From contig JAHQIY010000010.1 in the NCBI GenBank assembly GCA_019054805.1, positions 355,501 to 419,500 of the forward strand: a stretch of DNA of 64,000 nt, in the 5' to 3' direction. This stretch comes from Brachionus manjavacas (lineage: Eukaryota; Rotifera; Eurotatoria; Ploima; Brachionidae). Within the stretch, counting starts at the first letter, position 1. Each line of letters opens with the position of its first letter. Both the position numbers and the translations under genes were made by a program. Below are positions 28,901 through 62,090 of the stretch, one piece after another. The notes below the pieces were generated by a model. The model did no database searches and had not been told where the DNA came from. It saw nothing but the letters and a program-made list of their open reading frames with translations.

Positions 28901-30354
28901 AAAATTTATTTTTTATTTACTTTAGCTACTTAAATAATCAATAGTCTTTTTTGTACGGGTTTCATTTTTTAAATTCCGCTTTTAAATAAAACCAAGCATT
29001 CTCTTTTTTCACTTATTTAGATAAAATTTAGTGAGAGATATTTTTTTTTGATTTTAATTTTTTGATTTTTGTCACTAGAACTGGATGTTCACCCTTGGCA
29101 ATTGCAATAAACAATGACTATTTGTACATGATTGAAAAGCTCCTTTTGATGGGAGCTGATCCGAACCAAGTTGACAATAACGGCGACACACCGTTGATAA
29201 AATCAATTTGGTTAAGCATGAATTCAGAGTTTACAACTGAACAAATACTGAAAATAGTCAAACTTCTTGTGGACTGTGGTGCCGACTTGAATGCCAAAAA
29301 TGAAAGCGGCCGGACAGCTCTTTTTACTGCAATTTATCAAAATAACACCCGGATCGCTTTGTTCTTGATCGAACATGGAGCTGAGTGCCAAATGGAAGAC
29401 GATCTATTGAGCAATTTTACACTCGTTCACTATGCTTGTTTTCAAGGAAATTACCAGCTTACCAAAGTTCTACTGGAAAAAAACTGCAATCCAAATTCAA
29501 TTGCAGCTTCGTGTGAAAGCCCGATATACATTGCAGTGACTAGGGGATATGCTGATTTAGTCGGACTTCTAATTGAATACGGCGCTGATGTCAATCTCCT
29601 AATTGGTACAGAAAACGACAGCAAATGCACTGCTCTCCAAGCGGCGCTTTACTACATATCTGACTATAAACTTTTTAAACAAATTGTAAATAAACTTTTA
29701 TTAGGAAATGCTAATTTAAACATCGACCAGCCCGGTCCATTGCTCTACGTGTGTCTTCAGTACAACAAACTGGACTTTGCCAAATACTTGGTCTCAGTTG
29801 GCGCCGATGTTAAACAGCGCACTGTTTTTAACCAATCTTGCTTTTACAAAGCTTTTTTGAACAAAAATATTGAATTTATGAGCATGTGCATAATGGCTGG
29901 CTTTAAGCTCAACGATGAACCATGGATAAGTGAATACCTTCAAAATCCAGACTTTATCCAATACACAGACTATTATGTGAAAAGAGCCATGTCTTCGTCG
30001 AGCAGTGACTCGGAGAGTAGCAATGATAGTTTGAGCGAGGGCGAACTTGCCCGCAAAACAGACCAGGAATTGAATGAATTGCTCAATTTGGACGAATATT
30101 ATTTTGAAAGGTTTCACCGAAAAAGTACTCGAAAAAATAATAATCAAAAAAAACAGGCCGAATTGGCCAAGAATATTTTTAAGTTAATAAACTATCACTA
30201 TACGAATCCGCTGAGTCTTAAAGAAATTTGCCGCATAGCCATACGAGACCAAATGCTAAGCATAAATTTTAAACTAAAATATTCGGTTGAAAATGAGCTT
30301 TTTTTGCCCAAAATTTTAAAATCTTTTATTTTAATGGAAGAATTTAATTTATAA
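25977..30354 (+). CDS. Ankyrin-repeat and SOCS-box (ASB-type) protein, 2 exons
   Basis: Exon 1 is 25977-26632 and exon 2 is 29079-30354. The donor GACAA|GTATTC and acceptor CACTAG|A join in frame as ALDKTGCSPLAIAI, a textbook ankyrin turn, giving 643 residues. A Ser/acid-rich N-terminus (residues about 1-85) is followed by about ten ankyrin repeats from residue 90 to 450 (LLITNGADINQFD, LLVKNGADLSLCE, LLLMGADPNQVDNNGDTPLI, LIEHGAECQ, LIEYGADVNLL). Then comes a Ser/Asp cluster (SSSSDSESSNDSLSEGE) and a C-terminal SOCS box with BC box SLKEICRIAI. ASB proteins bring substrates to elongin B/C-cullin 5 ubiquitin ligases. The cullin-5 segment reads FLPKILKSFIL, so the usual LPxP is LPKI and cullin choice is uncertain. 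AATAAA lies 37 nt after the stop. Confidence 0.88.
26633..29078 (+). other. 2.4 kb intron of the ASB-type gene
   Basis: Carries a minus-strand, internally deleted LINE copy at 27605-27935. No other feature is supported. Confidence 0.75.
27605..27935 (-). mobile_element. Internally deleted CR1/Jockey-like LINE
   Basis: On the minus strand the start of the reverse transcriptase (SYEVVYNKLQDLYQNKS ... VDKLHPLLLKNCAEAFTVPL ... SANIIPLFKKGEKS) is joined directly to the 3' end shared with the copies at 40116 and 44945 (AGCTGTCTTAGTGTGCC, CTCGTTGGCTAGCC, then a TAC microsatellite at 27608-27621). About 2 kb of the palm domain and C-terminus is missing. This could be a deletion or template switching during insertion. 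Confidence 0.8.
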
Positions 30355-35267: not shown

Positions 35268-38200
35268 ATGAAATTATTAATTGGAACGTTTTTTTATTTG
35301 GTAGTGTTATATTGTTGCCATCCAGGTACCTTTGGTTTAGAAAAAAAAAGAAAACAAAAATTTAGAATAAATAAACTTAGTCTTGAAGAATTTGAAAATT
35401 GGTTTTCCAAAAAGAATTGAAAATATAAAAATATCTAAATATAAAAATGATAAATGTCCACCTGGTTGGTTTGATTACAGAAATACTTGCTATTATATTT
35501 CAAGATTCAGAAGAACATGGGTTAAAGCCAGACGCGATTGTCAAATGAAAGGTGCAGAATTGCTAGTGATTGATTCTGACATTGTTTTGGACTTTTCGAT
35601 GGATTTCTTCACAAAATTAAGATTGTCAAATTCATATTTTGTAATTTCACTAAGACCAAATCAAAAAAAAAATTTTTAACCAATTTTTGAATAGGTTGGT
35701 GCAAGAGCAAATGGTCTTCCATCAAATTGGGAATGGTTGAATGGAGAAAAAATTGCTGCTTCAGGATTCATGTAGCTCCGAATGAAAAAAATTTTAATTA
35801 TTTTTGCTAAAATATTTTTTATTAGGTGGAGTGAATGCGGAAGTCCATCAAACACTGGTGGAACAAATTCGATAATAGCAGAAGGATGTGCTACACTGAA
35901 CTTTTTTGGCCTGAACGACATTACTTGTGATTCAAAACAATTTTTTATTTGTTCAAGTTAAGTCATTTTACTTTTGTTATTTTTTTAGAATTTAAACTCA
36001 TCTTTTAAAATAAAAGAATTCAAAGGTTCAGAGCAAAATCAAGCAATTAAAATATCCGATCCAAAATTATTACAAGGTAATTTAAATTTCTATTTTTTTT
36101 TCTAAATCAAAAATTAAAATTAACAAGGAGCTTCACGAGGCTTGAAAAAGTGTCGATATGATTATCAATGCATCAAAGGATTGATTTGTACTCAAAATGG
36201 AACATGTGGTTGCCCTGATGGATTTTCTTTGTAAGCTTTGGTGAAATCCTTTTATAAATTTTAAAACCAGCATCTGTTTTTTTTTCAAGTATTTTCTTTT
36301 AAGAAATTAATTGATTTAATACTTGCATAAAGAGTATAAAAACATTTGTTCTATTAAGGATATATATTCTAGTATTTTGAATATATTGTAAGTGATGCTC
36401 ATAAAATAAAAAAAATATTTTGTTAGGTATCCTATTAATAACGGGTTTTCAAAGTAAATGAATATTTTTTTTTCGACAAAAATCTTTTCCTGTCTGCCAA
36501 AATTCCATAAATTTTATTCACAGAAACTATCACTATCACTATTTTTTTGTATATTTTTTGCATTTAAGAACGATATTAAATTAAAAATTAGAAAAGGTAT
36601 TGTTTCAGTTTCATTATACATATACAATAGTGCCATGACACGTTGTTTTTATGTAATTTTACGATAAATTACGTAAAAAAAATTATTAATTAATTAGATT
36701 CATTTTTAAGACTTAATATTGTTTTCATTTTATTTTCAAAGATTTATCTGCAATGTCAATATGTATCTCATTAAGAAAAAAAATATCTTATTTTTTCGAT
36801 TAAAAATTTTTTAAAGCTAAAAAAATTGAACCTTTCCGATGTTTAAAATACAAAAGTTGTCTAACTTTAAAGGTTGTTTTTTAAAATAATGATTTTTCAT
36901 TTAAATTGAAAGCTTCAGTAAAAAATTTAAATTTTTATTTGCTCTATGATTTCAGAAAATTTATTTATATTCATTGAATTCTATTTTAAATTGAAATTAA
37001 GTGATGTTTAAGTATGATGATTTTAAAAATAATTTTAATTTTAAATAATAGTTTTAGTAGTAGTTTAAGTTTCTGGTCATAAAACTTAATTGCTATATTT
37101 TTAGATTATTTTTCATCTTTAGGCCTCTAAATTTTGACAAATGCATAAGTATAAATTCAGCTGATTTCATGACATTCATTGCCTCTTATGGTCATCTTGA
37201 TTTTTTTATTTCTAATTTGGAATTAACTTGGAGGACTGCTTTGCAAAGTGCAAAGAAATACGAATGCAATTTTTTGATGTTTGAAAATTCACTGCAAATA
37301 ACAAATTTTATTGATTTGGCCATCAAAAATAATTTAGCTGGAACATATTGGGTAAATTTGGGAATAAAAAATGAATCCAAAATAAATTTTTTCTTTCTAG
37401 ATAGGGGTATTTAGTTTGAATAGAACAGCTACTTGGATTGACTGCTCTCCAATACCAAATGGACCTTGGTACCAACTTTTTTCATGAATCAATAAAAATA
37501 AATAAATTCTATAATTAAAATACAAAGGCTTCCTTCATTCAATGGTTGTTCAAATCAAATAATTGAGCCTGGTTTTGTATGCTTTGCATTGGAAAACTAT
37601 AGAATAGTTATGAAAAATTGCGCTCACAATTACAAAGCCTTATATGTGACGGGTAAAAAATTTATTTTTTGTATCATTCTTTTGAAATCAAAACAAAACA
37701 TTTTTAAAGATCTTAGATAAAATATTTGCATTTTAAGTATTCTTATATTTTAAAAAAACTTAACTCTCTAAATTTAAAAAAATTTAGACTTTAATCTGTT
37801 CAACCTTGTCTAATTGAATTGAATATTTTTTTTGATAAAAAATCCTATGTAGTATTTTTATTAGGCGTAAAATCCGATGAACTTCAAATTGAATTATTGA
37901 GGAAAAAATTAACAACAACTACTTCGACACCAACTGCTACTACATCTATTGATTCGTCAATCATTAATCCTCCGGGGTGTGGTAGAAGAATTAAGGAAAT
38001 TCGGAATGAAAGGCCGGGGAAAATTGTAAATGGACAAAGAGCCGATCCAGAAGATTGGGGCTGGCAAACCCTTCTGGAATACCGTGGTATCTTTATTTGT
38101 GGAGGATCTATTATAAACTCAGAATGGGTCATATCAGCTGCCCATTGTTTTTTGTCAAATAGCTCTGCATCAGATTTCACTCTGAAATTTGGTCTACATG

Positions 38201-39648
38201 ACCAACTAAATCCAGAAGAATATTCGCAATCAAGAAATGTTATTTATTTTATTATTCATTCCTTTTACAACCCGAACACTTTTGAAAACGACATTGCTTT
38301 AATCAGGATAAGCGTAAGCTTTTTTTAATAATCTTATGAATATGATTTTTGGTTAAAAGTATTTTTTGTTTGCTATAATTATTTTTTATAATTATTAAAG
38401 TATTTATTTGACATGATGGTGGGCGCAAATTTACGTAAAATTACGAGAGTTATAAAAGAAATAAAAATTTTTAAAATTCTCAGTTTGAAATCTTTTTTAA
38501 ATGTATAATATTTAAGATTTTTTTTTTTTGACCAATATATCCTTCCTAAGTATATTTCGATTGTTTTTTTTGCTACTTGCTTCTACTATCTAAATCGAAT
38601 TGAAAAAAGAAAAATTAAATTTATTAATAATTATTTCCGGGAGTACTATTTTTTAAACTTGTTCTAGACTTGTTTAAATATTAATGGGTGCTCTAGGTAA
38701 TTGTTGTTACCTATCATTTTCAAGTTTCTCACCTCATTTCTTGCTTTTGTTTGCAACATTCGCTAAATACCGATTTATTGGTCTTTTTCCAAAAGGCTTT
38801 GTCTGAACCTTTATTTGCAAGTGATCAGAGCTCTTTTAATAGTTCCCAATCCAGATGGCTACATCTTGCTAGATTTATTGTAAAAAAATTTAAAACGTGT
38901 TTTTAAAATTTTGAAAAGAATCTGAATTCTCAAATATCTTATTATTTTTTAACAAAAATAGGATTTTTTTCCCATAGTTCTTTTCTGCTGTCAAATAGAA
39001 GACGTACCAATTGAAAAGTCAATCTTTCTATCTTATAAATTTTTATTTAATAGAATATAGAATCAATTGAATTCCTAGTTTTTTAATTTTTAATTCTAAA
39101 TCGGAATAAAATTATTTTTTAAGTCACCGTTGATTTTTAGTGATCAAATTTTACCTGTTTGTATTCCGGATAATTCAGAAAGCTTTGCAAACAAAGAGAG
39201 TTGGACAACAGGATGGGGCGCTTTGTTTCAACAGGCAACGAGACCATCAAGATATTTAATGGAAGTTAAGCTGTCAATATTAAACGATCTAGAATGCGAA
39301 CAAAAATATTTTGAAAGTTTTAATTTTACGATAAATGCAGATGTTTTTTTATGTGGTCGTACTAATTTGAAAGGTCCTTGCTTCGGTGATTCAGGAGGAC
39401 CATTGGTAGTTAAATCACAAGATAGATGGGAACTTGCTGGAATTACAAGTTGGGGTTTATTTTGTGGAGACGGAGCTGTTTTCACAAAAACAAGCAATTA
39501 CATAGATTGGATTTTGGAGACCATGAGTGGTAAGAAACATGAATATTTACAGATAATTTATTTTCATTATAAATGTGGGTAAAATTTCTATCTAAATTCA
39601 GGCAGGCGTATAATAATTTGGTCATCAGCTAAAAAACTTATTGGATAA
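35268..39648 (+). CDS. Secreted lectin-protease mosaic: signal peptide, CTLD, EB-like, CTLD, S1 protease
   Basis: Twelve exons, all in phase, 670 residues: 35268-35325, 35381-35640, 35695-35771, 35826-35956, 36017-36076, 36128-36230, 37123-37351, 37401-37468, 37528-37652, 37865-38313, 39124-39529, 39602-39648. Signal peptide MKLLIGTFFYLVVLYCCHP. CTLD1 covers about residues 36-150 (CPPGWFDYRNTCYYIS, NWEWLNG, then LND where lectins have WND, FICS). A short Cys-rich EB/EGF-like piece follows (CRYDYQCIKGLICTQNGTC), then a diverged CTLD2 (ELTWRTALQSAKKYE, YWIGVFSLNRTATWIDC). A Thr-rich linker precedes an S1 protease with IVNG start, SAAHC, ENDIAL and GDSGGP, so the triad is intact. Residue 189 (chymotrypsin numbering) is Gly (KGPCFGDSGG), so trypsin specificity is not expected. 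The linker Cys can pair with VCIPD. It resembles lectin-protease innate-immune or digestive mosaics; role inferred. Confidence 0.85.
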
Positions 39649-40115
39649 GCTGAAAAAACTTAAACTTAAGCCTATTTGAAAAACCATAATTATTTTGATT
39701 TATGTTTTAAAATCTAAAATTTTTAAATTCTTTTTAATTAAAAAATCAGTTTTCATATTTAAAGAAAAAATCGTAAAAAGAAATAATGGAAAAAAAAAAT
39801 AAAAAAAAATATAAAATGAGTCAGTTAAGAAGAACCACATATTCTACTAGCCCTAAGTTATGAAGCAGATTTATCTTTTTACTTCAGGAAATTCAATTAC
39901 GCATGAAGTTACACATAAATGTTAATTCTTGTATTTTCCGTATTTTTATTCTAGTTATAGAACTATTAATTAATTCTTAAATAAATAAATACAGACCTGA
40001 TAATTAAAAATTTCCAAAATATTTTAACAGATTTGTTTCTTATTGATTGGTAAATTCACGAAGAGAACTTGGTAAGACTATCCCAAAATTTTCAATGCTT
40101 TTTTGAATTATAAGA
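39649..40115. other. Spacer downstream of the first protease module
   Basis: AT-rich, no coding content. It separates exon 12 from the LINE insertion at 40116. Confidence 0.5.
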
Positions 40116-41453
40116 TAGTAGTAGTAGTTTTGACTGTAGTTTGCTAGCCAGCGAGTGTGCTGATAAGGCACACTAAGACAGCTGATTTGATTGATTGCTG
40201 CTCATCCAGCAATCAATGCCTGCTTTAAAGCTGTTAACATTGGGGGCTTCAACTAATTGATTTGGCAATGAGTTCCAAATGTAAGCGGTTCTGTTGAAAA
40301 AAAAGTTACCTCTATGTTGGAGCCTCGAAATTTCTTTGTGATATTTGAAGCAGTGACCTCTTCCTTAGATTTTGGTGATATTAAAATTGTTGCTTTTTTC
40401 AAACATTTCTATTCCATGCATGAACTTGTATAATTGAATTAGGTCACCTCTTTTTCTTCTTTCCACCAGATTTGGAATGTTCAAAGCCTTCAATCTGCTT
40501 TCATGCGGTTTGTCTCTAATTGAAGAAACAAATTTCGTAGCTCTGCGTTGAATCCTCTCAAGATTCTCACAATCCGACTTAAGAAATGGAGACCATACAG
40601 GCACAGCAAATTCCAAAAGAGGACTAACAAAAGTTAAATAGAATGATCTAAATAACTTACAATCAAAACGAGCGAATGATTTCCTGATGCGACCCAACAT
40701 TTGATTTGCTTTGTTTGTAGCCTCTATCACTTGATTTTTCCATTTGAGATTTGTATTGAAGATAACTCCACGATCTCTTTCGATTTCTGACGTTGATAAC
40801 TCTTAACCATTAATAAAATAAGTGAATTCTTTGTTTTTATGACCGTAATGCATAACCACACATTTAAATGTGTTGAAGAGAAGAAGCCAATCTTGAGTCT
40901 ACTTGAAAATTAAATCTAAATCTGATTGCAGTTTTACTGCGCTTATTTCTGATACAGTTTGCGAGAATATTTTAGTATCATCTGCATACATTTTGACAAC
41001 ATTCTCAATTCCTTTTGGTAGATGATTGATATACAAAACGAACAATAGTGGACCAATCACTAACCCTTGTGGTACACCGCTAAAAATCTCAACCCAATCC
41101 GACAAAATTTCACCTTGAACAACTCGTTGTCTTCTATTTTTCAAGAAAGATTCAATCCATTTTAGTGTCATCCCATCAAAGCAATACGCTTTCAATTTAG
41201 CTATTAGTCGTCTGTGCGGAACAGTATCAAATGCTTTCGCAAAATCTAGCAGAATTACATCAACAGGCATACTTTTGTCTAGACTTTTTGAGATGAAATC
41301 TAGAGTTTCCAGAAGATTAGATGTACATGTTTTTTTCTTGACAAATTCATGCTGTTCTTTAGATATAATATTGTTCTTATAAAGATAGTCTTTCATTCTG
41401 GTTCTTATTATGCTTTCCATAATTTTGCACGGAATTGAAGTTAAAGACACAGG
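40116..41453 (-). mobile_element. 5'-truncated CR1/Jockey-like LINE
   Basis: Minus strand. It begins abruptly at the YPVSLTS position of the palm (near 41453) and runs through LLDFAKAFDTVPH, GVPQGLVIGPLLFVLYIN and KMYADDTKIF. It then reads DWLLLFNTFKCVVMHYGHKN, SPLLEFAVPVWSPFLKSD and ERIQRRATKFVSSIRDKP, followed by a 3' UTR and a (TAC)n tail at 40116-40127. Stop codons after SDLDLIFK, after FING and after NITKI break it; the last stop is shared with the copy at 44945-45440, so it may be ancestral to both. It sits between the two protease modules. Confidence 0.88.
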
Positions 41454-41458
41454 ATATA

Positions 41459-42006
41459 TTTAAATTTTGAATTTTTGTTTTAATTTTTTTTAAATCAAAT
41501 GAAAATTCAAAATGCTATTTTCAATGTATTTTTGAGTAACTAATTTTTTAATTTTTTATAATTAATTTTCTAAATATAAAAATACCTGCTGTTTGGATGG
41601 TAAATTAAGGTCTAGGACACAGGTGTGTGTTTTGCCCAGAACTTGGCAATAGTAAACCAACATGATACCAGATATGGAAGACCTTGATTATAAATTTTAA
41701 AAAATTTTGTTAAATTACAACCCTGTCTTATTTTCCGTTGATATTTTAGTCTGGGTTCAAATCCTTGAAAAACATTTTGAATCAACCTTTATTATTTATT
41801 GATTAAATAATTTTTGATGCAATAGAATAATTTTTATCGTCGAATTCAAATAAACTGGTTCATAACTTATTGATGATTCATCTATCTATTTTTATCTATT
41901 AATCATAATTTAATTTTTTCTCATTAAAATTTCCAAAATTTTACCTAAAAGTATAAAAAATAATGATAAGGTTTACTTTTTAATAAAAAAAAAAAAATAA
42001 TTTAAG
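41459..42006. other. Spacer before the second protease module
   Basis: No lectin-domain exon could be found here, although the protease module downstream lacks its own signal peptide and lectin exons. Confidence 0.5.
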
Positions 42007-43127
42007 GATTAAGTTCGAAGCATAAATCAAGCATCTATGTCACCTCTACAACCAGTTTAAGTACTTCAACGGGTAATTTTTGAGTAATTTTAATTTAAGT
42101 TAGATAACTTTTAATACCCTTTTAATTATTAGCAACAACAAACTTTGATTCATCAATTAATCAGCCTGAATGTGGTCGAAGGCCATCTCCTAATAATTTA
42201 TTTGGTCAAATAGTTGGAGGCAAAAGAGCTATTCCAAAAGACTGGGGCTGGCAGGTAGCGATGAATTACCAAAGTCTTGGATTTTTATGTGGAGGATCTG
42301 TACTAAACACATTTTGGATCATCACTGCAGCTCATTGCGTAGAATTTGATTTAGATCCTGATTTTTATTCTATCGACATTGGTTTACATGACAGAGAAGG
42401 TGTTGAGCCTTGGGCTCTAAAGAAAAAAGTCGACAAAATTATTATTCACCCAAATTATAATTCTGACACTTTGGATAACGATATAGCTTTATTAAAGCTT
42501 GATGTAATTTCATTTACTTTACTATTTGTGAAATAGAATGAAAAAAATTAATTTATTTTCAGTTTAATTTAATTGAAATTTTTACTAGAAAAAATTGTTA
42601 AAGGTAAATTTCAGGAATCTTTTGATTCGATTTTCAGCATAGATTTTCCAATATTATTATGTGAATTTTCTTTATTTTTCATGGTACTTTTTTTTTAGAT
42701 TCAAATTGATTAAATTATTTAATTTAAGAGTCCACTGACATTTACTGACAAGATTTATCCAATCTGTATTCCAGATGAAAGTTTAGATTTTCAGCACAAA
42801 TACTCGTGGGCAACTGGTTGGGGAGCTTTATTTTGGACTGGTCCAGTATCAAGATATCTGATGCAAGTTAAATTGCTCATTTTATCAAATGACAAATGTG
42901 AAAAAAAATTCAACTTGAATACAACTTCCGTTATATGTGCTGGGGAAACAGGTAAGAATAAAGATACTTGTCAGGGTGATTCTGGTGGTCCTCTAGTGGT
43001 GCAGATAAAAGGAAAATGGTTATTAGCTGGTATTACTAGTTGGGGAATTGAATGCGGCGATGGTGGTGTTTACACAAAAACTAGCTTTTTTATTCATTGG
43101 ATAAAGAATATAATCGAAAACAATTAG
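42007..43127 (+). CDS. Second trypsin-like S1 protease module, paralogue of the upstream one
   Basis: Exons 42007-42072 (symmetric phase 1-1, Ser/Thr-rich linker VTSTTSLSTST), 42133-42503 and 42729-43127 (TAG). Together they encode a linker, the propeptide Cys (QPECGRRP), IVGG at the activation site, ITAAHC, DNDIALL, ICIPD, WATGWG and CQGDSGGPLV. The triad is intact and Asp189 is present (KDTCQGDSGG), so trypsin-like Arg/Lys cleavage is predicted. The residue before IVGG is Gln, so a trypsin-type activator would not be expected to process the zymogen there. The internal intron is at the same place and phase as in the upstream module. No start codon or signal peptide precedes it; its first exon is in phase with exon 9 of the lectin-protease gene, so it may be an alternative 3' module or a truncated duplicate. 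AATAAA at 43129-43134. Confidence 0.82.
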
Positions 43128-46899: not shown

Positions 46900-49800
46900 A
46901 ATACTGATACTGGGGATGAGCTGAAAAAAACATTGGAACTTTAATAAAAGAAATACAAGATCTGAAGATCTCTAATGGAAAAATTTTAGATATTGTTGAG
47001 GATCTTAAGCAAGAAAATATACAACTAAAGAAAAAGCTCTTTGATCAAAGTAAATTAAAAAATTTTAATTTGTACAACTGGATGGAAAACAATCGAATTG
47101 ATGATAATGGTATGAACTCGATTGATCCTGAGTTAGATCAAAACGGTAATGAATGGCAAAACGTTGGTCCAACTACAGTATCAAACAGACGACCGTCTTA
47201 TTCTGACTGGAATGGACAAAACAATTAAACAGACGGACAATGGGAAAAAAAGAGAGGTAGATTTATTAGTTAGCTTTATTTATGTCAGCAAAACTCGAAG
47301 CTAAGCACGGCACCTAAACCTCAAAAAGTTTTTGATTATTACAGTGGTTTTTGGTCCCTTAGCAGTACTAAGAACAGTGTAAGAGAAGTTATTGAGCGTT
47401 TTGCTAAAGTAGAGAATATTGGGGAACTCAAAACTAAATTTGATTGTTACAAATCATATAGATTCCAAGTATTGAGCAACTATAAAGATGCGATTTTAAA
47501 TGCCAATAACTGGCCTACGGGTATTAGAATAAAGCGATTCTTCAATTCCACTGGGTCAAAAAAGACTAATTTAGAGCAAATTAGCAATGTTGTTCAAGAT
47601 AGTTTCAAATCAAATGGTGACTCTCGTAACAAAATTGGCCATGATGTTGTAATTAGTTTATCTGAGAACAAAAGTGGAGCAAGTAGAAGTGGAGTAGCTC
47701 CGGGTACTGGTATTTTTATCCCGTCTTATATACCTCAAGGTACTTTACGAAGTTATGATGATATTAGTTATGATGAATCTGTTACAGAGCCGAATCAAAT
47801 ACCTTCAAAAAAGTTGGATAATGGCAAAGTTGACAGCCAGGAAGTATTTTTTGAGCTAACAATCGCTAAGTCGAGCAACTCAACTCAAATGAATTTATGA
47901 TAATTACAAGCTATTACTGTAAATATTTTACCATTAGTAAATTAATTGTAGATAAAATTTTAGAATTTTTTTATATTGTATTTTTGTGTCAACATTAAGT
48001 TTTTTATGAGGAAGACTATAATATAAAATCACGTTATCCAGACTTTAATCTTTTTTTTAAATCCGACATGGACATCTCTATCTCAGATAGAAAACAAGAT
48101 CGGCGTTTCGGTGGTAAGTGTTGGTTAGTGAAAAATAGTCTAAATGTTATTTCCTTTGATTTTGATAATCCAGATTATGCTGTTATTAGAGTTTTAGCTG
48201 GCACTGAGACTATTAATATAATTGATGTCTGGCCCTCATTTGATAATAATAAACTTAAAAGACTCTGTAACTTCAAATCAATTTTATCTTCGATTGAAAA
48301 TACATTAGAAACTTACTCAAATGAAAATTATTGCATTGTTGGTGACTGGAATTGCGATCAGAAACGTGAAAAACGCTTTGACATATTATTTAATAATTTT
48401 ATTAGCGACAATCAACTTGTTAATTGCTTGGACAAATTTGAACCATTTATTGACAATACTTATATGAATGGTAATTATATAGCTACACTAGACCATATTC
48501 TAGTCAAAAACAATGATTTAGTTAACATATCAAGATTTGATGTCTTTCTTAATGCAAGCAACTTGAGTGACCATCATCAAATTTTTTGTGAATTTAATTT
48601 AAAAAAGAAAGAACAGCCGACTACTGATAAGATTAAGGCGAAATTTCATTTCTTTGATTGGAAAAATGATGAATTTATTGAGAAGTACGAACTAAACTTG
48701 TCTACCAATCTTATAGATTTATTTAAAATTGTAAACAAAATAGACAATAGCTCTAAAAGTGAAGTGATAAATTTGATTGATTTCATATATCAACTACTTC
48801 CTAGTATTTTTCTTAAATCGGCTAGAATTTCAGAAAAAGTCACATGTTATAACAATCATAAACAAAAAGCCAGAGTCTCAATGTATTAAAATGGTGAAAT
48901 AGATGGATTAACTAATGTCATAAATGACTTATATGGTAAATTTGAGAGGCTGTGTATTAAAATAGCATTGATCAAAATAGCAAAATCATAATAGCGATAT
49001 CATGATAGCAAAAATTACATGTTGTTTTAAAGTTCAAAATAACATTATCAAATTAACATAATAATTTTTGAATACTCAAAATAACACGTTCACAATAGCT
49101 TATTCAAAATATCAAGTTAGAAGCTAAATTAAATTGTTTATTTATTTATTTTAAAAATAATTTAGGCGAGTCCTTGGCCGGATGAAATGGAGACTTAGTC
49201 CTTCCTTGCAGCCACATGATAGATTTTTGATACCACATAATGTAAAAAAAAAATAACACAATTTTTTGAAAAAAGTTAAATTAGTTTTAGTTTAGTTTTT
49301 AAATTTTCCTATATATGTTAAATGAAAACAAATTTACAATTTTCATAAAAAAATTAAAATTTAAATTAAATTGTTTGCATTTCATAAAAATGGAAATTGT
49401 CAATACATTATCAAAGCTAAAAAGTATGATCCTTCAAAAAAATTATAAACATTACACAATTTAGCTTTATTACTTATATAATTTTTGTTCTAATTGATAA
49501 ATTAATTGATGTATGCTATTTTGAATTTAATAAAAGTGTCGATATTCTAATTATGTTATTTTGAATTCGCTAATTTAAACATTGTTATTTTAATACTTTA
49601 ATTGCTATTCTAATCTTAGCTATTTTAATATTGCTATTATGATAATTTTATTTTGATCAATGCTGCTTTGACTATTTACCATTTGAGAAGTCGCAATTTA
49701 AAGATAAGTGTATAAGGTCCCAAATCAATCTAAATAAGAAGAAATTAAAAACTTTAATTCGCAAAGAGGCCTACAAACATGAATATGATAAAAATATCAA

Positions 49801-53400: not shown

Positions 53401-56400
53401 TTCCTTGACATCATTTAATTCAAAATTAAAAAATTTAAAATTTAATTTTTATAGATCTGTATCAGAAGATATAGCACCACTTTTTTACTTTGAATTTTTG
53501 TAATAGTAGCGTTATCATTATCCTTTAAGTGCATTGATTTTATCACAATCATTAAAACCACCGGAGTCACCTTCGGATCCTCGGTCTGATTTGTGTAAAA
53601 TATTTGTGCGCTTCTTTTCTAGAAATATTTTACTAGTTTTATTCTCTACTTGAAAAAAAAAAAACGAAAATATTTTAAATGATGCTAAATCTGAAGCTTA
53701 AAAAAAGAGTTTTGCAGAATTATTTTAAGTGATCATTTTTTATTTTAGTCATCAGATTTTCATTATAAATCATGTAATCATCAAAAACGTGATCGAAAAA
53801 AAATTCGATATTCACCAATCGAGCATTCTATCGAATTTTTAATCTCTGTTTATAAGCTAATTGCATTTTTATAGACTTAATAGACTTTAGAAATTGATAT
53901 TGAAAACATTGTTCTATTGAAATAAAGTTTTTGATTTAATTTAGAGAGAAAATCTTCAAAATTTGTCTTGCTCTTTTAGAATCTAATTTTAAAATAGATG
54001 CATATTAATTCGTCCTATCAATTATTAAATTTTCATTTGAAAATAAATAAAATCGTCAGAAGGATAACTAAATTAATGATTTTTATTTATTAAAAGTTTA
54101 ATTATTTATTTTGGTTTAATTAATAGTTCTCTAATATACATAGTGTTGTAAATAAATAGCATTTGAATTTACTATTGAATAATTAAATCGATTTTTATAT
54201 TTGAGTCTAAATTTAAACAAATTTTTAAGTTAAGTTTTGATTTAAAACCAGAAGAATAACTAAATTTAAATTTAATTTTGAATTTAAAAAAATAAAATAA
54301 TTAAGCCTTTATTTGAAAATTTCTTTTCTTTAAATTAAAAAATCATTTAAATAGAATTTAGAATTATTTAAGTTAATGTTTGAATTTAATTATTTTATAT
54401 TTTAAATTAGAATCAAAATAAATCGAATTTCTTCAAATTGTCAATTTGATTTACAACACTAAATCCACAACATACCTTAAATCCCTAAATCAGGGCTTTG
54501 CCAAGGATCCCGTTTAATTAAAGATCATTTAATCTTGATATTTTACTTTTTAAAAAACTAAATTTAACTAGAAAAAAATATTTATAAACCAAATTTTTCT
54601 TTTTAATACGTACCATAATAATTCTTGATTTTTCCGAGCCATTTTCGGTGCATTGTGGCTCGCTATAGTTGGCTGAAAATTTTTTAACATATTTAAAAAT
54701 CTATTTTCAAAAAATTAAATAGTTAGATACACACCTGAGTTTGAAGGTAATCGGTTTTGGGACAACTATAAAAAAATTATTTGAATATTGTTTGAAAATT
54801 TATTAATAAAATAATTTAAATTTAAAAAAAAAAGTGACCAAAAACTCGAAACAATTAAAACAATTAGATTTAAAGGAAAAGCAATTAATTTTTTGTACAT
54901 AAAGCAAGTTTATCGAGTGCACATTTAGGACCCGAAACCTCAGGTATTAGATTTTTTAGACTTGTGAGCTGGGTTTAGGGTCCATAATTAATAAGCTATC
55001 TAAAGCGATTTGTGTATTTGGCTTACAAATTTTTTTTAGATGAGTCAATCAACTGAATATAGGCATTGTGTAATTTGTTATATGATTTGATCGACTCTGT
55101 TTTTTGATGTTGATACAGTGAATATAAACTTTCATAAGCTGATTTAAGGTTGTGAATCTTTTCGTTCTCAGAAAGGTCACTTGTTCTATGCCCATTAATT
55201 GGATTTTTTGAGTTAGATTTTTTTAACTTTAAAAACTCATCATTTAGATAGCTGTAGGCCTCTCTAAGCTCAGAGTTATCTACACTAACAGCATCTAATT
55301 TAGCTAATAAATTTTTATAGCTTTTGATTAAATTCAGATAATTAGCGATCAAATCTTGTAAATTATTTATCTCATTAAAATCTGTACTTAACCTTACGCT
55401 TTCTGTCTGGTCGTCCTTGCTATAATTGATGTCACATTGAGTTTCCACATCGCATTTTTTTACCATCAGTAATAAGCTTGTAGCATTTTTATGCTTTAAG
55501 TTTTCTTCTTGGAAAGAACAATCTTGGTGAGAGTTGATTTCAGATTCATCAATGTTGGCATTGAAAGAATCGGACACTTTCCTTGGAGAAGAGTGTTGAC
55601 TGATGAACTGTCTCAAGCTTTGAAGAGAATACGTTGAATCTAATGTATTCGCTGGTGTATTTTCCAAATCATTATCCTTGATATTATTCAGTATTTGAAT
55701 TAAATTGTTCAAGTCAGATTCGATTTCTTGGACTTTATGGTCTATTTGGTTAGGTTCTAAATCACGAAAAGAATCAATCAGAGAATGGAAAACATCATTG
55801 TAGCATTTGTCTTGTTTGGAAATCAGTCTACGCTGGGCGTAGATAAGTTTTTCATACAAAAAACACATTTTTTTAGACTCTTTTTCAAGTTTATCAATCA
55901 AAAGCTTCTGATATTGAACTAAATTATTCAATATAACAATTTGTATGTGAGAATCGCTTGAACTAATATTTTCCTCTAAATTTTTATCTTCTGGTACATT
56001 AAATTCTACATTAGGCTTTAAAGTTTTGATTTCAGATTGGAGAATATTTATGCAGTCATCTTTGGAATCAATTTTGGCATTTAAATCACTGATTTTGTTC
56101 TCAAAAAGTTTGATCATTTTTTCGTGTTCTTCGTTGGTAAAGTAAATCTCATCCTTGAAATTACTGATATCCAGACTCTTGGACTCAAGTTGAGATTTAA
56201 GGGAGTTTATTTCATTATTTAAATTGCCGAGCTCAGACTGACCTAAGGAACTGTTTTGATCTTTAATTTTTATTAATTCCTGATCTTTTGATAAAATTTG
56301 AGAATTTAAGTCTTGTACTTTCTCAGTCAATTTGTTGCATTGATTTTCTACTTCTATCAAACCTCTCAAATCAGTTTCCAAAGATTGATTTAGCGATTTG

Positions 56401-59400
56401 AGTGCATCGACCTCTCTGATCAATTCCGTATTTTGATTTTGCAACTGTTTCTCGGTAGACTGGACTAAATCAAACTTTGAAATTAGTGAATTAAATTCAT
56501 TCTGTCGGTGCTGAAGCTCTGACTCCAATGTTTCAATCGAAATTTGATATTGTTCCTCTTTTTTTGACATTTCTTTTTTTAAATCGTCAATAAAGGCTTC
56601 TAAATCGTTCACTTTGGTCGAACATTGTGTAAAATCTAATTCATCTTTTACTGTATTGGTAAATTCTGAGCTCAAAGAATCATTGATAACAAGCTCTTTA
56701 CGTTCATTTTCCAAAACTTCTTTCTCAGATCTCAAAGAATCAACATCGCAAAGAAGATCCATATTTTTTTTCTGCAATTCTCGCCTTGATTGTTCTAATT
56801 CATTAAATTTGCACTGCATCTCCTGCTCACGGACTTCGCATGTGTTTTTTTCTTCCTTGTACTTTTCATTTGAGTGTAATAGTTCTTCATTTATTTTCTC
56901 GAGTCGATTAATTGTGTCGATATTTCGTTGATTAATAATTTCTCGAGATTGCTCATCAAGAAGGTGAGAGTTTTGTTGTTGAAGTGAAATAATTTGATCT
57001 TCCAGTATTTTGTTTGAATTTTGCCACTCGACCAAATTTTGGCTTAGCTGACTACTTATGTTTTGTTTTTCCAAAATCGAATCTTCCAATTTAGATATTT
57101 CTTGTTCAATGTTCAAAACCTGACAATCAAATTCTGTCTTTTTTCGTTCAAGAACATTAATATTATCAACAAGATTAGTATTGGCTTTAAATTGTTCTAA
57201 CATTGTATTGAGGTCATTTATTTTTTGATCTTTTAGCTCAATCACTTCTTTCAGTGAATCAATATCGTAATTTTTCGTATTAAATTGGTCCCTTAGTTTC
57301 TGCATTTCTGTGTTATCTTTGAATTCGTATTTTTTACCAAATTGAATCTCACAAAATTTTGATGATTCTTGGATGTTATTTCTGGTTGCTATATTATAAT
57401 TACTTTGATCTGATTCCGGATTGACATTTATGTTTTCATTATTATTTCCATTTGAATTTGAAATGTCTTTTTCAATTTTGCTTGATTTTAACTTTGAAAC
57501 TTCTAATTTCTGATGGTCTAAATTAACAATGGTGCTTTGATTCTTTTCTCCATCTAATTTTCCTCCTTTTCCATTTAATATCTCATTTTCTAAGTCTTTT
57601 TTAGCTTCAATGCAATCATCATTATCTTTTCTTAATTTCTTTATAATCTTTTTTAACTTGATAATATCTTTGGCTTGCTGCTCAATTTCATTTTTTAAAA
57701 ATTCATTTTCAGCGATAAAATTTTTCTTTTGCTCATTTAAAAAGTTCCTTTCTTCTTTAATTTCATTCTTTAATGATTCATTTTCGAAATTTTTATCATT
57801 TAATTTAGAACTCATTTGATCAAACAATATCTTTAGTTCATTGATTTCATTAATTAAACTTATTTTCTCTAATTGTAAATTATTTTTTTCCTCATCGTTT
57901 AATAATAATTTCGAATTAATTTTTTCCAATTCTTTGCTCAATTCATTATTTTTAAAAACATGAATTTCATTTTCTTTCAGTAATTTAAAATTATCATCTT
58001 TCAAAATTGTCACTTGGTCCATTAGTTCATTCATTTCATTCGAAGAAGATCTATTCAAATCAAAATCTTGTTCTAAATGATTACTCAATAAATTAATATC
58101 ATTCTCAAACTGGGTTATCTTTTGACAAAGTTCATATTTTTCTGATTTCAATATTTCATTCTGAGCAAAAAGATCTTGGTATTTTGTCTCTATTTGCAAA
58201 AATTTTTGCTCGAATTCATTGAACTTATTATTATCTGAATGCAAATAAGTTGAATTTAAATATCTTTGATCTTTTTCATAGATATAGTTGCATTTATTAG
58301 TTTCAGGATTGAAAATAAAACTGTCATTATGAATTTTAAAGACCTTCACATCATTTTCCAAATAGCAAATTCTAAGCAAACAACTCTCCCTTTCATTTTT
58401 CAAAAATGCAATTTCCCTTTCAAGATCTATTATCTTGTTCTCAAAATACTCTTTTTCACTTTTATCATTCTCTTGATTAAAATTAAGTATTTCTTCCTTG
58501 TACTTTTCATTTGAGTGTAATAGTTCTTCATTTATTTTCTCGAGTCGATTAATTGTGTCGATATTTCGTTGATTAATAATTTCTCGAGATTGCTCATCAA
58601 GAAGGTGAGAGTTTTGTTGTTGAAGTGAAATAATTTGATCTTCCAGTATTTTGTTTGAATTTTGCCACTCGACCAAATTTTGGCTTAGCTGACTACTTAT
58701 GTTTTGTTTTTCCAAAATCGAATCTTCCAATTTAGATATTTCTTGTTCAATGATCAAAACCTGACAATCAAATTCTGTCTTTTTTCGTTCAAGAACATTA
58801 ATATTATCAACAAGATTAGTATTGGCTTTAAATTGTTCTAAAATTGTATTGAGGTCATTTATTTTTTGATCTTTTAACTCAATCACTTCTTTCAGTGAAT
58901 CAATTTCTTCATTAATTGTTTGTTGTACTTCGAATTCTTTTTTCAATTCATCGATTTCTTTGTTTTTCTTATCGGTTATTTCTTTAATGACATTTTCATA
59001 GTTCTTTTCTACTTGGTCATTTAACTTCAAAGATAATTCCATATTATGGCTTTGATATTCCAAAATTTTTGCTTCAAGCATCTCGTTTGCATTATTCCAT
59101 TCTTTTAAATTATGCTCCAGCTTTTCATTTAACGCTTCATTTTCAGATATTTTTTTTTGAAGAATTTTTATTTCATTTTCAAGTTCATTTGTTTTATTTT
59201 CGAGATTTTTTTTGTTTGTTTCTAAATTCTCGATGCTTTTTGACAATTTATTCAGATTAGAGTATTGCTCAATCTTTTGATTTAGTTTCTCGATTATCCT
59301 ATTTTTTGATTCCGATTGCTCAAGAATTTCTTTTTTCTGTTCTCCATGCAAGATATTTAGCTTTTCATCTGTAGATGATTTAGTTAAGTCTTTCTCATTT

Positions 59401-60989
59401 CTGATTAATGTGAGTGAATCTTTAATCGGTTCAGATATTTCATCAGAACTTTCTAATTTATGCGTGTAATCAAAGTTATTTTTTTCTGAGTTTTGGTCAG
59501 TAAAATCGAAATTTCCCTTTAAATCATTAGTCTGATTCCAAACTGTTTGTTTTTTTAGCTCTGACAAATTTATGAGTAAATTTTCAATCCTAATTTCTTT
59601 GTGTTTCAGCTGCTCTTCGTATTCCTGTTTTAATTTTGAAATAGTGTCTTCGGAATTTGATATTTTGGCTTCAAATGATTGATGCGATATTGTTAAATCA
59701 CTATTTTGAGCCTGAAGTTCAATAATTTGCTTTTCCAATACTCTATTTGCATTTTCCCATTCCATCAAGTTTTCACTCAAATTAGAATATAACTCTTGAT
59801 TTTTAATTATTTCAATTTCGATTAACTTAATACTGCTCTCCGTTTCTTCCAGCTTATTTTTTGTTGTAATGATTGAATTAAATGAATCATCAGAATCATC
59901 ATGATCTGTTTGGGTATCCTTATCAATCGATGATCCAAATTTTTTCTTAATTTGCATGTAATTTTCATCTACATTTTGTTGATAATCGCATTCACTTTTT
60001 GTGGTATTATTTCTAATTAAACTATTTTCTTGCTCGTCTAGATTATTTTTATGAAAAAAATCATTAGATTTTTTCAAAATATCAGAATTCTGTTTTTGGG
60101 TTTCTAAAATTTGATTCTCGATTATCTCATTAGCTTGTTGCCATTGTTGAAGATTGTCAACAAGCTGCTTATTCAATTCTTTAAATCCATCAATTTCTGT
60201 TTCCAAACTTTCTATTCTTAATTTCGATTCCAATTTGCTGTTCTCAAGTTCTTTGAGTTTTTTATAAATATCATGCTCTTCATTCTTTAAATTTTCAAAA
60301 CTCTCTTGCAATGAGGAGATATTTTTTTGATCGCTTGCAAATTTCTCGTTCAATTTCTCATTCAAATTCTGATTATTCGTAATTTCCTTTTCAAGAATTT
60401 GATTAGCATTCTGCCATTCTAACAAATTAACATTTAATTTTTCATTTATTTCTTGTTGATGTAAAATATCTTGCTCGAATTGCTTTATTTTTTGATCTAG
60501 TCTAAAATTTTTATCCTCAAGATCCTGACTTGCTTCAGTCGCTTGGAGAACAATCCTTATTTCTTGTATCTCGCTTCTTAATTTGACAATTTCTTCGTCT
60601 TTTGAATCCAAATCATTTCTCAAAGTAATAATATCGCATTCAGATTGTAATTTTAAAGTATCCAATATGTTCAATTCGCTTTCAAGCTTTTCATTTTTCA
60701 TTTTTAACTCATTTATTTTATCATTTTTATCGTCACTTTCAATGATATCTGAATTTTTTTTTTCTCTCTCTACCTTTGATTCATTTTGAAGTAATAAATT
60801 TCGTTCATTACATCGTTCGTCGATTTCAAGTTTAGTGATTAATTTTGTTTTTAATTCATCTATATTTTCTCGAAGATTTATTTCTTGATTAAATTGTATA
60901 TTTTCTTTATTATTTAACTTTTTTTGTTGATTAACTATTGATTCCAGGAGATGATTTTGTTTTTTTAAGTCTTCGATTGTGTTTTTCAT
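50474..60989 (-). CDS. Giant coiled-coil protein, 9 exons, about 2,322 residues
   Basis: Exons (minus, all in phase): 60989-55027, 54765-54735, 54672-54614, 52181-52043, 51988-51872, 51295-51170, 51109-51086, 51032-50806, 50756-50474. The first ends at a GTAAGC donor just before an apparent stop at 55025. Exon 1 (1,987 codons) is almost continuous Glu/Lys/Leu/Asn heptad coiled coil. It contains six copies of a motif like NLVEWQNSNKILEDQI near residues 190, 280, 405, 625, 770 and 1320. The later exons add more coiled coil (LKREKIDLESTVEDLKRTLK), a conserved-looking LLTPGNEELAIGADGKPLRA segment, a Ser-rich linker and a C-terminal Cys pair (FTCEKCEMRW, then CNC). The architecture resembles golgins or centrosomal scaffolds, but no diagnostic C-terminal domain (such as GRIP) was recognised. 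The start may instead be upstream through an acceptor near 61003. Confidence 0.82.
52182..54613 (-). other. 2.4 kb intron of the coiled-coil gene
   Basis: AT-rich. It contains one open, exon-like block at 53632-53518 on the same strand (listed separately). No transposon was recognised. Confidence 0.55.
53518..53632 (-). other. Possible alternative terminal exon of the coiled-coil gene
   Basis: Behind an ACTAG acceptor is an open frame compatible with the phase-2 end of exon 3, reading KIFLEKKRTNILHKSDRGSE then GDSGGFNDCDKINALKG and a stop. The base composition is less AT-rich than the surroundings and looks coding. If used instead of the splice to 52181, it would give a shorter C-terminus lacking the last six exons. 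Confidence 0.4.
56850..58904 (-). repeat. 414-bp in-frame duplication within the coiled-coil exon
   Basis: 56850-57263 and 58491-58904 are 414 bp each and differ at about three positions (for example AATGTTC/AATGATC and TAACATT/TAAAATT). The offset of 1,641 bp is 547 codons, so the frame is kept. The duplicated block encodes SLKEVIELKDQKINDLNT through RLEKINEELLHSNEKYKEE. Near identity indicates a recent duplication or gene conversion. Confidence 0.92.
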
Positions 60990-61003
60990 TATTCTAATCT
61001 CCT

Positions 61004-62090
61004 CTGTTATTTTAATGTTAACAATTTTTTGTTTTCCATTTTCGGTATCTTTGTTTAAATAAAATTAATTAAATTTTGTTGATTAGAAATTAAATCAGAA
61101 GTTTTTGTTTTTCATCAAAATTAGAACATTTTAGATCAAATTTTGAAAAAATATTTTATAAATTACAATATTTAAATTAAAAGAATAAAAAAAATCATAA
61201 TCAGAATTATTTTAAAGTTAGTTTAATTTATTTATCTAAATCTTCTTAAATTAAGAGTAACAAAACTCTAATTTATTATTTTAATTATTTTTTTTTTTGC
61301 TTTTTATTAAATAATCAAAATTATTTGAGTACTTAAAAGAGAATTAAATTCATTTTTACCAATTCATCCCAATTAAAATTGATTTTATAGCAGTACAATA
61401 CAAGGAATAATTAATTTAATTAATATATTTTATTAGAATTATTATTGTAAATTTTCAATATATATTACTTGAACAATTATTATTATTTGTTACACATGTT
61501 GGATATTAAATTAAAATTTTATAATGTAAAAACTCATGTGATCATCGATCATATCTATCAATATTTCAGTTTCGCTTATTAAAATTTTTTTAATTAATTC
61601 GAAATGATAAATAGTTATTCTATTGTTACTTGAAAGATCGAGTTCATTATAAAAAAATCTATCAATAATCTATCTAATATATAGAAATTTTTGAAAAAAA
61701 TTAAAAGCAATCAACATGTTTTTTTCATTCTTATTTTCAAACTTAAAATTGATTTGATCTCCTTGAAATTTTAAATTGACTTTAATTAATAAACAGAATT
61801 TAGATAAATTTATTTTCTAAAATTAAAAAATTTAAATTTTCAGAATATTTTTTAATGATATACAAGTTGATAAGAAATAAATAAATTGAAACTCAACTAA
61901 TTTTATAAAACTTATTTTATAATCTAAAGAAATAAAAATCAATTTTAGCCGTCACATTCAAGAAATAATGAGTTAATTAAATTCATTTTTTTGAGTAGAG
62001 TAATAAAAAATTTCATTTTTTTTTACGATTTAATTTTTTAATTTTTTCACCGCCAGAATTTGCTAAAATTGAAAAGATATTATAAAAGTA
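61004..62090. other. AT-rich upstream region of the coiled-coil gene
   Basis: Non-coding; presumably holds the promoter and perhaps a 5' untranslated exon of the minus-strand gene. No element can be assigned. Confidence 0.5.

Follow-up and report, generated by a model that had tools for sequence, protein, structure and literature searches.

A predicted gene of the rotifer Brachionus manjavacas with a lectin head and two serine protease modules

We describe a predicted gene of the rotifer Brachionus manjavacas in which a double C-type lectin head is followed by two serine protease modules, M1 and M2. It lies in a 64,000-nucleotide stretch (the window; C10:355501-419500, contig JAHQIY010000010.1, 26.7% G+C) of a 114-Mb genome in 61 contigs; coordinates without a contig prefix are those of the window, on the + strand unless noted. 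The best-supported reading, to which we give a probability of about 0.57, is that the head and both protease units would form one gene with the proteases in series. The joined frame is open, its splice sites agree in phase, the catalytic motifs of both modules are intact, and two other loci of the genome have a junction at this place of the protease. The main transcript would run from exon 9, the end of the head, into M1, and from the M1 donor at 39529 into the M2 linker exon at 42007 across a retroelement-bearing intron. Its product would be a secreted protein of 933 residues. After the signal peptide it would have a C-type lectin domain, a cysteine-rich hinge and the second lectin domain, and then serine proteases 1 and 2, each preceded by a Thr-rich linker. 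We infer that the 39529-42007 junction is used, that both proteases have activity, and that their specificities differ.

Head, protease modules and their junctions

The head consists of nine exons (35268-37652), as the preliminary description of this stretch had proposed, and scripted splicing gave the same phase-1 end. Exon 1 (35268..35325) carries the start codon and the signal peptide MKLLIGTFFYLVVLYCCHP, recognized by eye. The first C-type lectin domain (CTLD1) is encoded by exon 2 (35381..35640), exon 3 (35695..35771) and exon 4 (35826..35956); the exon 2 acceptor is 35381, and an alternative acceptor at 35366 leads to a stop. A short spacer (exon 5, 36017..36076) and a cysteine-rich hinge with paralogues in L011, L012, L013 and L031 (exon 6, 36128..36230) precede the second, divergent lectin domain (CTLD2), which spans exon 7 (37123..37351), exon 8 (37401..37468) and exon 9 (37528..37652; donor CGG/GTAAAA, 7.8 bits). 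CTLD1 matches Pfam Lectin_C (E 9e-11). A Pfam search with exon 7 alone gave no match, and a CTLD2 profile built from five paralogues matched C-type lectins in the PDB (best E 2e-5). Calcium-dependent sugar binding by C-type lectins involves the motifs EPN or QPD and WND; by eye, CTLD1 has SPS and LND at the likely sugar-binding places.

M1 is encoded by exon 10 (37865..38313), which combines a Thr-rich linker with the first protease half (His, Asp), and exon 11 (39124..39529), which holds the second half (Ser) and ends in phase 1 at donor GTG/GTAAGA (8.3 bits). The splice sites of these exons are strong. M2 begins with a Thr/Ser-rich linker exon (42007..42072, phase 1-1, acceptor TTTAAG/GA, 10.5 bits), followed by its first half (His, Asp; 42133..42503) and by its second half (Ser) with the stop codon (42729..43127), both placed by Trypsin match and splicing script. 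Matches to Pfam Trypsin are strong (M1, E 6e-52; M2, E 4e-57), and AAHC, NDIAL and GDSGG are present in both modules. Each is interrupted by a phase-0 intron (38314-39123 in M1, 42504-42728 in M2), whose shared position had been described previously. Between the modules, and not part of the gene, lies a reverse-transcriptase fragment of a retroelement (40902..41459, - strand; RVT_1, E 7e-27).

Alignment to chymotrypsin and TMPRSS2 gives Gly and Ala in M1, and Asp and Gly in M2, at what we take to be pocket positions 189 and 226; because of these residues M2 should have trypsin-like specificity and M1 should not, its primary pocket being altered. The residue preceding the activation site is Lys in M1 and Gln in M2, where it stands before IVGG. 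Each module also has a Cys ahead of this site. Such a Cys keeps the preceding part tethered after activation in two-chain proteases, and by analogy it could do so in M1 and M2.

The M1 acceptor at 37865 and the M2 acceptor at 42007 both accept phase 1, and head plus M2 gives an open frame of 648 codons when exon 2 starts at 35381; both had been claimed before and are borne out by scripted splicing. A third junction had been overlooked: the terminal phase-1 donor of M1 (39529/39530) joins in frame to the M2 acceptor at 42007, and head, M1 and M2 so spliced form an open lectin-protease-protease frame of 933 codons. With 855 bases and phase 1 at both ends, M1 forms a symmetric 1-1 cassette, and the frame therefore permits M1 alone, M2 alone or both. 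For an ending on M1 there are two routes: read unspliced, exon 11 meets a stop at 39580-39582, and a possible short terminal exon (39602..39648; 14 codons and stop, with a weak acceptor of 4.6 bits) would complete a frame of 670 codons with head and M1.

Splice sites were scored with a model from 27 introns of these gene families, inferred by homology rather than from cDNA, and with alternative training sets of 25 introns (without the M1 and M2 internal sites) and 17 introns (without any site of the window). Among the 2,497 GT sites of the window's + strand, donor 39529 ranks in the best 0.5%, 0.5% and 0.4% under the three sets, and among the 2,943 AG sites acceptor 42007 ranks in the best 0.2%, 0.4% and 0.7%. 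Acceptor 39602 is equalled or exceeded by 11%, 12% and 9% of AG sites, respectively.

Serial protease junctions at other loci

At the loci examined, we counted donors behind 23 distinct protease C-termini that carry GDSGG; L028 and L029, which have ADSGG, stand outside the count. A donor of at least 5 bits follows the last Trp in 8 of the 23. In three of them, namely M1, a unit of an array on C3 and unit 1 of a dimer on C10, such a donor has phase 1 and lies exactly 22 bases after the start of the last Trp codon, and in all three a signal-less phase-1 protease unit comes next. Donors of L002, L007 and L009 lie at other offsets. M2 has no such donor, while in C10 unit 2 it comes only after 374 bases and has phase 2. 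M1 therefore appears to have the build of a non-terminal unit and M2 that of a terminal one, a sign that is not exclusive.

The C10 dimer runs from signal through protease 1, phase-1 donor, 759-base intron and phase-1 acceptor to protease 2, and after splicing it has an open frame of 679 codons that includes two GDSGG motifs. A scan of the 759-base intron found no signal candidate. The dimer's signal exon has phase 0 and unit 2 accepts phase 1; among the exons seen, therefore, the end of unit 1 is the only compatible partner of unit 2. The C3 array (L003-L006; C3:518414-528274, minus strand) has seven protease units, nearly identical and each about 1,015 bases long; a signal peptide is present in unit 1, and units 2-7 are signal-less. 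The same 83-base phase-1 intron lies behind each unit, the last one preceding a Ser/Thr-rich tail; a long Ser/Thr-rich repeat region then follows the array. Because a donor at the same place precedes signal-less units on C10 and C3, and C10 unit 2 can be joined only from unit 1, tandem proteases are likelier than swapped ones in the present gene.

Dependence of M2 on upstream exons, and ancestry

A two-unit arrangement, in which lectin-M1 ends at 39602-39648 while M2 belongs to a gene of its own or is the surviving tail of what was once a second lectin-protease gene, has a modest chance of being right. It requires that the first exon of M2 is unseen, lost or far upstream. We examined 17 first-exon positions of protease relatives in the genome, several of them near-identical copies, judging signal peptides by eye. 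In ten the signal peptide shares exon and frame with the protease, and in five (L014, L015, L017, L018, L019) it sits in a separate exon before a phase-0 intron. In one more it is out of frame with the protease (L025 near 9840, a near-identical copy of L023/L024/L026), and the only position with none is L016 at 1395, which is unit 2 of the C10 dimer. That 15 of 17 carry their own signal peptide in frame, and one more out of frame, speaks for an independent M2, as does the retroelement fragment just ahead of it. Of these relatives, L014-L016 and L023-L026 have Ser-rich C-terminal tails, and in L023, L025 and L026 the tail, by eye, closes with a hydrophobic stretch like that of glycosylphosphatidylinositol (GPI)-anchored proteins.

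Against separate units stands the region ahead of M2. Its nearest upstream in-frame stop (42003) is directly ahead of the linker exon, and no start codon of its own or credible signal-peptide exon was found in 39400-42132. This interval holds three combinations of ATG, hydrophobic segment and phase-1 donor, against about 2.6 (+ strand) or 1.4 (- strand) expected at the whole-window rate, and their donors score 2.8, -0.1 and 2.8 bits under the 25-site model; as candidates for a signal exon of M2 they are no better than chance and were rejected. Neither was a relic of a second lectin head found upstream of M2, the best lectin exon having E 0.08 and stops. Plain inheritance from stand-alone proteases does not explain the phase-1 acceptors, since those proteases have phase 0 or no intron, an arrangement from which that of M2 differs. 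The earlier view that M2 has no start, signal peptide or lectin exons of its own is thus upheld, and its dependence on upstream exons is supported by these sequence features.

In a tree of 17 rows, M2 groups with L021, a stand-alone protease 63% identical to it (support 97/92), and M1 is placed elsewhere. Forcing a clade of M1 and M2 is 15.6 log units worse (AU p 0.084). The two modules are probably not each other's nearest relatives, which exons from a recent local duplication would be, though their grouping is not formally rejected at this p value. M2 and L021 differ at 52% of 61 shared four-fold sites; because the frame and motifs of M2 are intact despite this difference, selection has probably acted on M2 for most of the time since its divergence from L021, which speaks for an expressed protein.

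The genome has four paralogues of the double-CTLD head (L011, L012, L013 and L031), a comparison that covers these loci and leaves out further lectin loci on C12. They share the head architecture, but no protease match was found in the 13, 16, 13 and 7 kb, respectively, examined beside them. Exon 9 of L011-L013 has a phase-1 end and can be followed by a Thr-rich tail exon; in L012 and L013 this tail exon has 75 bases and again finishes in phase 1, while L011 has a short Thr-rich tail containing a stop. Thr-rich, mucin-like repeat regions lie downstream in L012 (with L033), L013 (with L034) and L031. The M2 linker exon resembles these tail exons of L011-L013 in phase, size and Thr content and may be a copy of them, but the C3 unit linkers look alike too. 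Among the matches listed, no other lectin and protease on a single contig lie closer together than about 34 kb (C11; by eye). In the tandem reading, a lectin gene would have acquired two protease cassettes that are not close relatives, and phase-1/phase-1 cassettes of this kind could be strung after any phase-1 donor.

Elsewhere in the window are an ankyrin-repeat protein with a SOCS box (29035-30351, +), a fragment of a retroelement endonuclease (47999-48886, +; a weak match, below cut-off), and a 2,013-codon open frame (55023-61064, -) that is strongly strand-skewed and has no match above cut-off in Pfam.

Other readings and related systems

The preliminary description had read the gene as a lectin whose protease is possibly exchanged by mutually exclusive splicing; its dependence of M2 on upstream exons is supported, and the exclusivity is not. 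Under exchange, the head would join M1, ending at 39582 or 39648, or would skip M1 and join M2. The phases permit this, skipping the 1-1 cassette preserves the frame, an M1-only end exists at 39602-39648, and the predicted specificity residues differ between the modules. A precedent can be named. The head of MASP1 is not itself a lectin but associates with lectins. The published account of the MASP1 gene (MASP-1/MASP-3) gives one head and two protease modules that are mutually exclusive (PMC3759447); its head is made of CUB, EGF and CCP domains, unlike the lectin head here, and in the present gene a serial junction exists. The frame here also allows both modules together, nothing enforces exclusivity, and the M1 exons, with their strong sites, would need regulated skipping. 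At two other loci the junction that M1 has at its end connects to the following unit, and M1 and M2 are not sisters in the tree (a grouping not formally rejected). We consider exchange improbable, and it is equally doubtful that regulated skipping of M1 replaces an altered-pocket protease (Gly 189) by a trypsin-like one (Asp 189) in an invertebrate, independently of MASP1. A tandem protein as main form, accompanied by regulated isoforms that drop one protease, would use the fact that all three routes are in frame; this combination is rather less probable still. That M2 is a decaying, unexpressed remnant is very improbable: it has no start of its own, adjoins retroelement debris and has Gln instead of Lys or Arg before its IVGG activation site, but its three exons are all open with the His-Asp-Ser motifs kept. 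Only 3.3% of 2,000 simulations that redrew 10% of its bases at random left M2 stop-free, and its divergence from L021 is far larger.

Several points weigh against the tandem gene itself. Its head-M1-M2 structure is read from genomic sequence, and the splice model was built on homology-inferred introns, with this gene's own sites included in the 0.2% rank of acceptor 42007. The nearer acceptor at 39602, which would give a 72-base intron of the size usual here, could terminate M1. M1 falls outside the branch of the C3 and C10 units that have its junction place. L027 has a strong phase-1 donor of 8.6 bits at offset 10, and the 3.3 kb examined downstream of it contain no second protease; four more C-termini have donors of at least 5 bits at other offsets; such donors, therefore, need not lead to another protease. 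On C3, units 3, 5 and 6 are one base shorter, and the joined frame stays open no further than codon 777, ending within unit 3 after two full domains.

Both parts of the proposed architecture have relatives. Human polyserases 1-3, as described in PMC1435904, likewise have several trypsin-fold domains serially in one secreted or membrane chain, and domain loss through alternative splicing is suggested there. The 933-codon frame, if its junction is used, similarly holds two protease domains; here a double C-type lectin head precedes them, the linkers are Thr-rich and catalytic motifs are kept in both. CLSP1-3 of Aedes aegypti, on the account in PMC6070988, also combine a C-type lectin domain and a serine protease in one protein, but with the protease first and one domain of each kind. 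The terms protease, trypsin and mucin are absent from the main text of a survey of rotifer secretory lectins (PMC8878817). Among the papers listed in literature searches on lectin-protease and tandem-protease fusions, none with a lectin head followed by tandem proteases came up, which is not proof of absence. Lectin-protease fusions and polyserases are thus already known, and a lectin head with tandem proteases would be a variant of both.

If the tandem reading is true, phase-1-ended cassettes have been strung both behind a signal-bearing protease (on C3 and C10) and behind a lectin head in one genome, which would clearly illustrate how secreted proteases grow by modules. A single lectin chain bearing two proteases whose specificities apparently differ would make a compact molecule for targeting and cleavage, with a role perhaps in defence or feeding.

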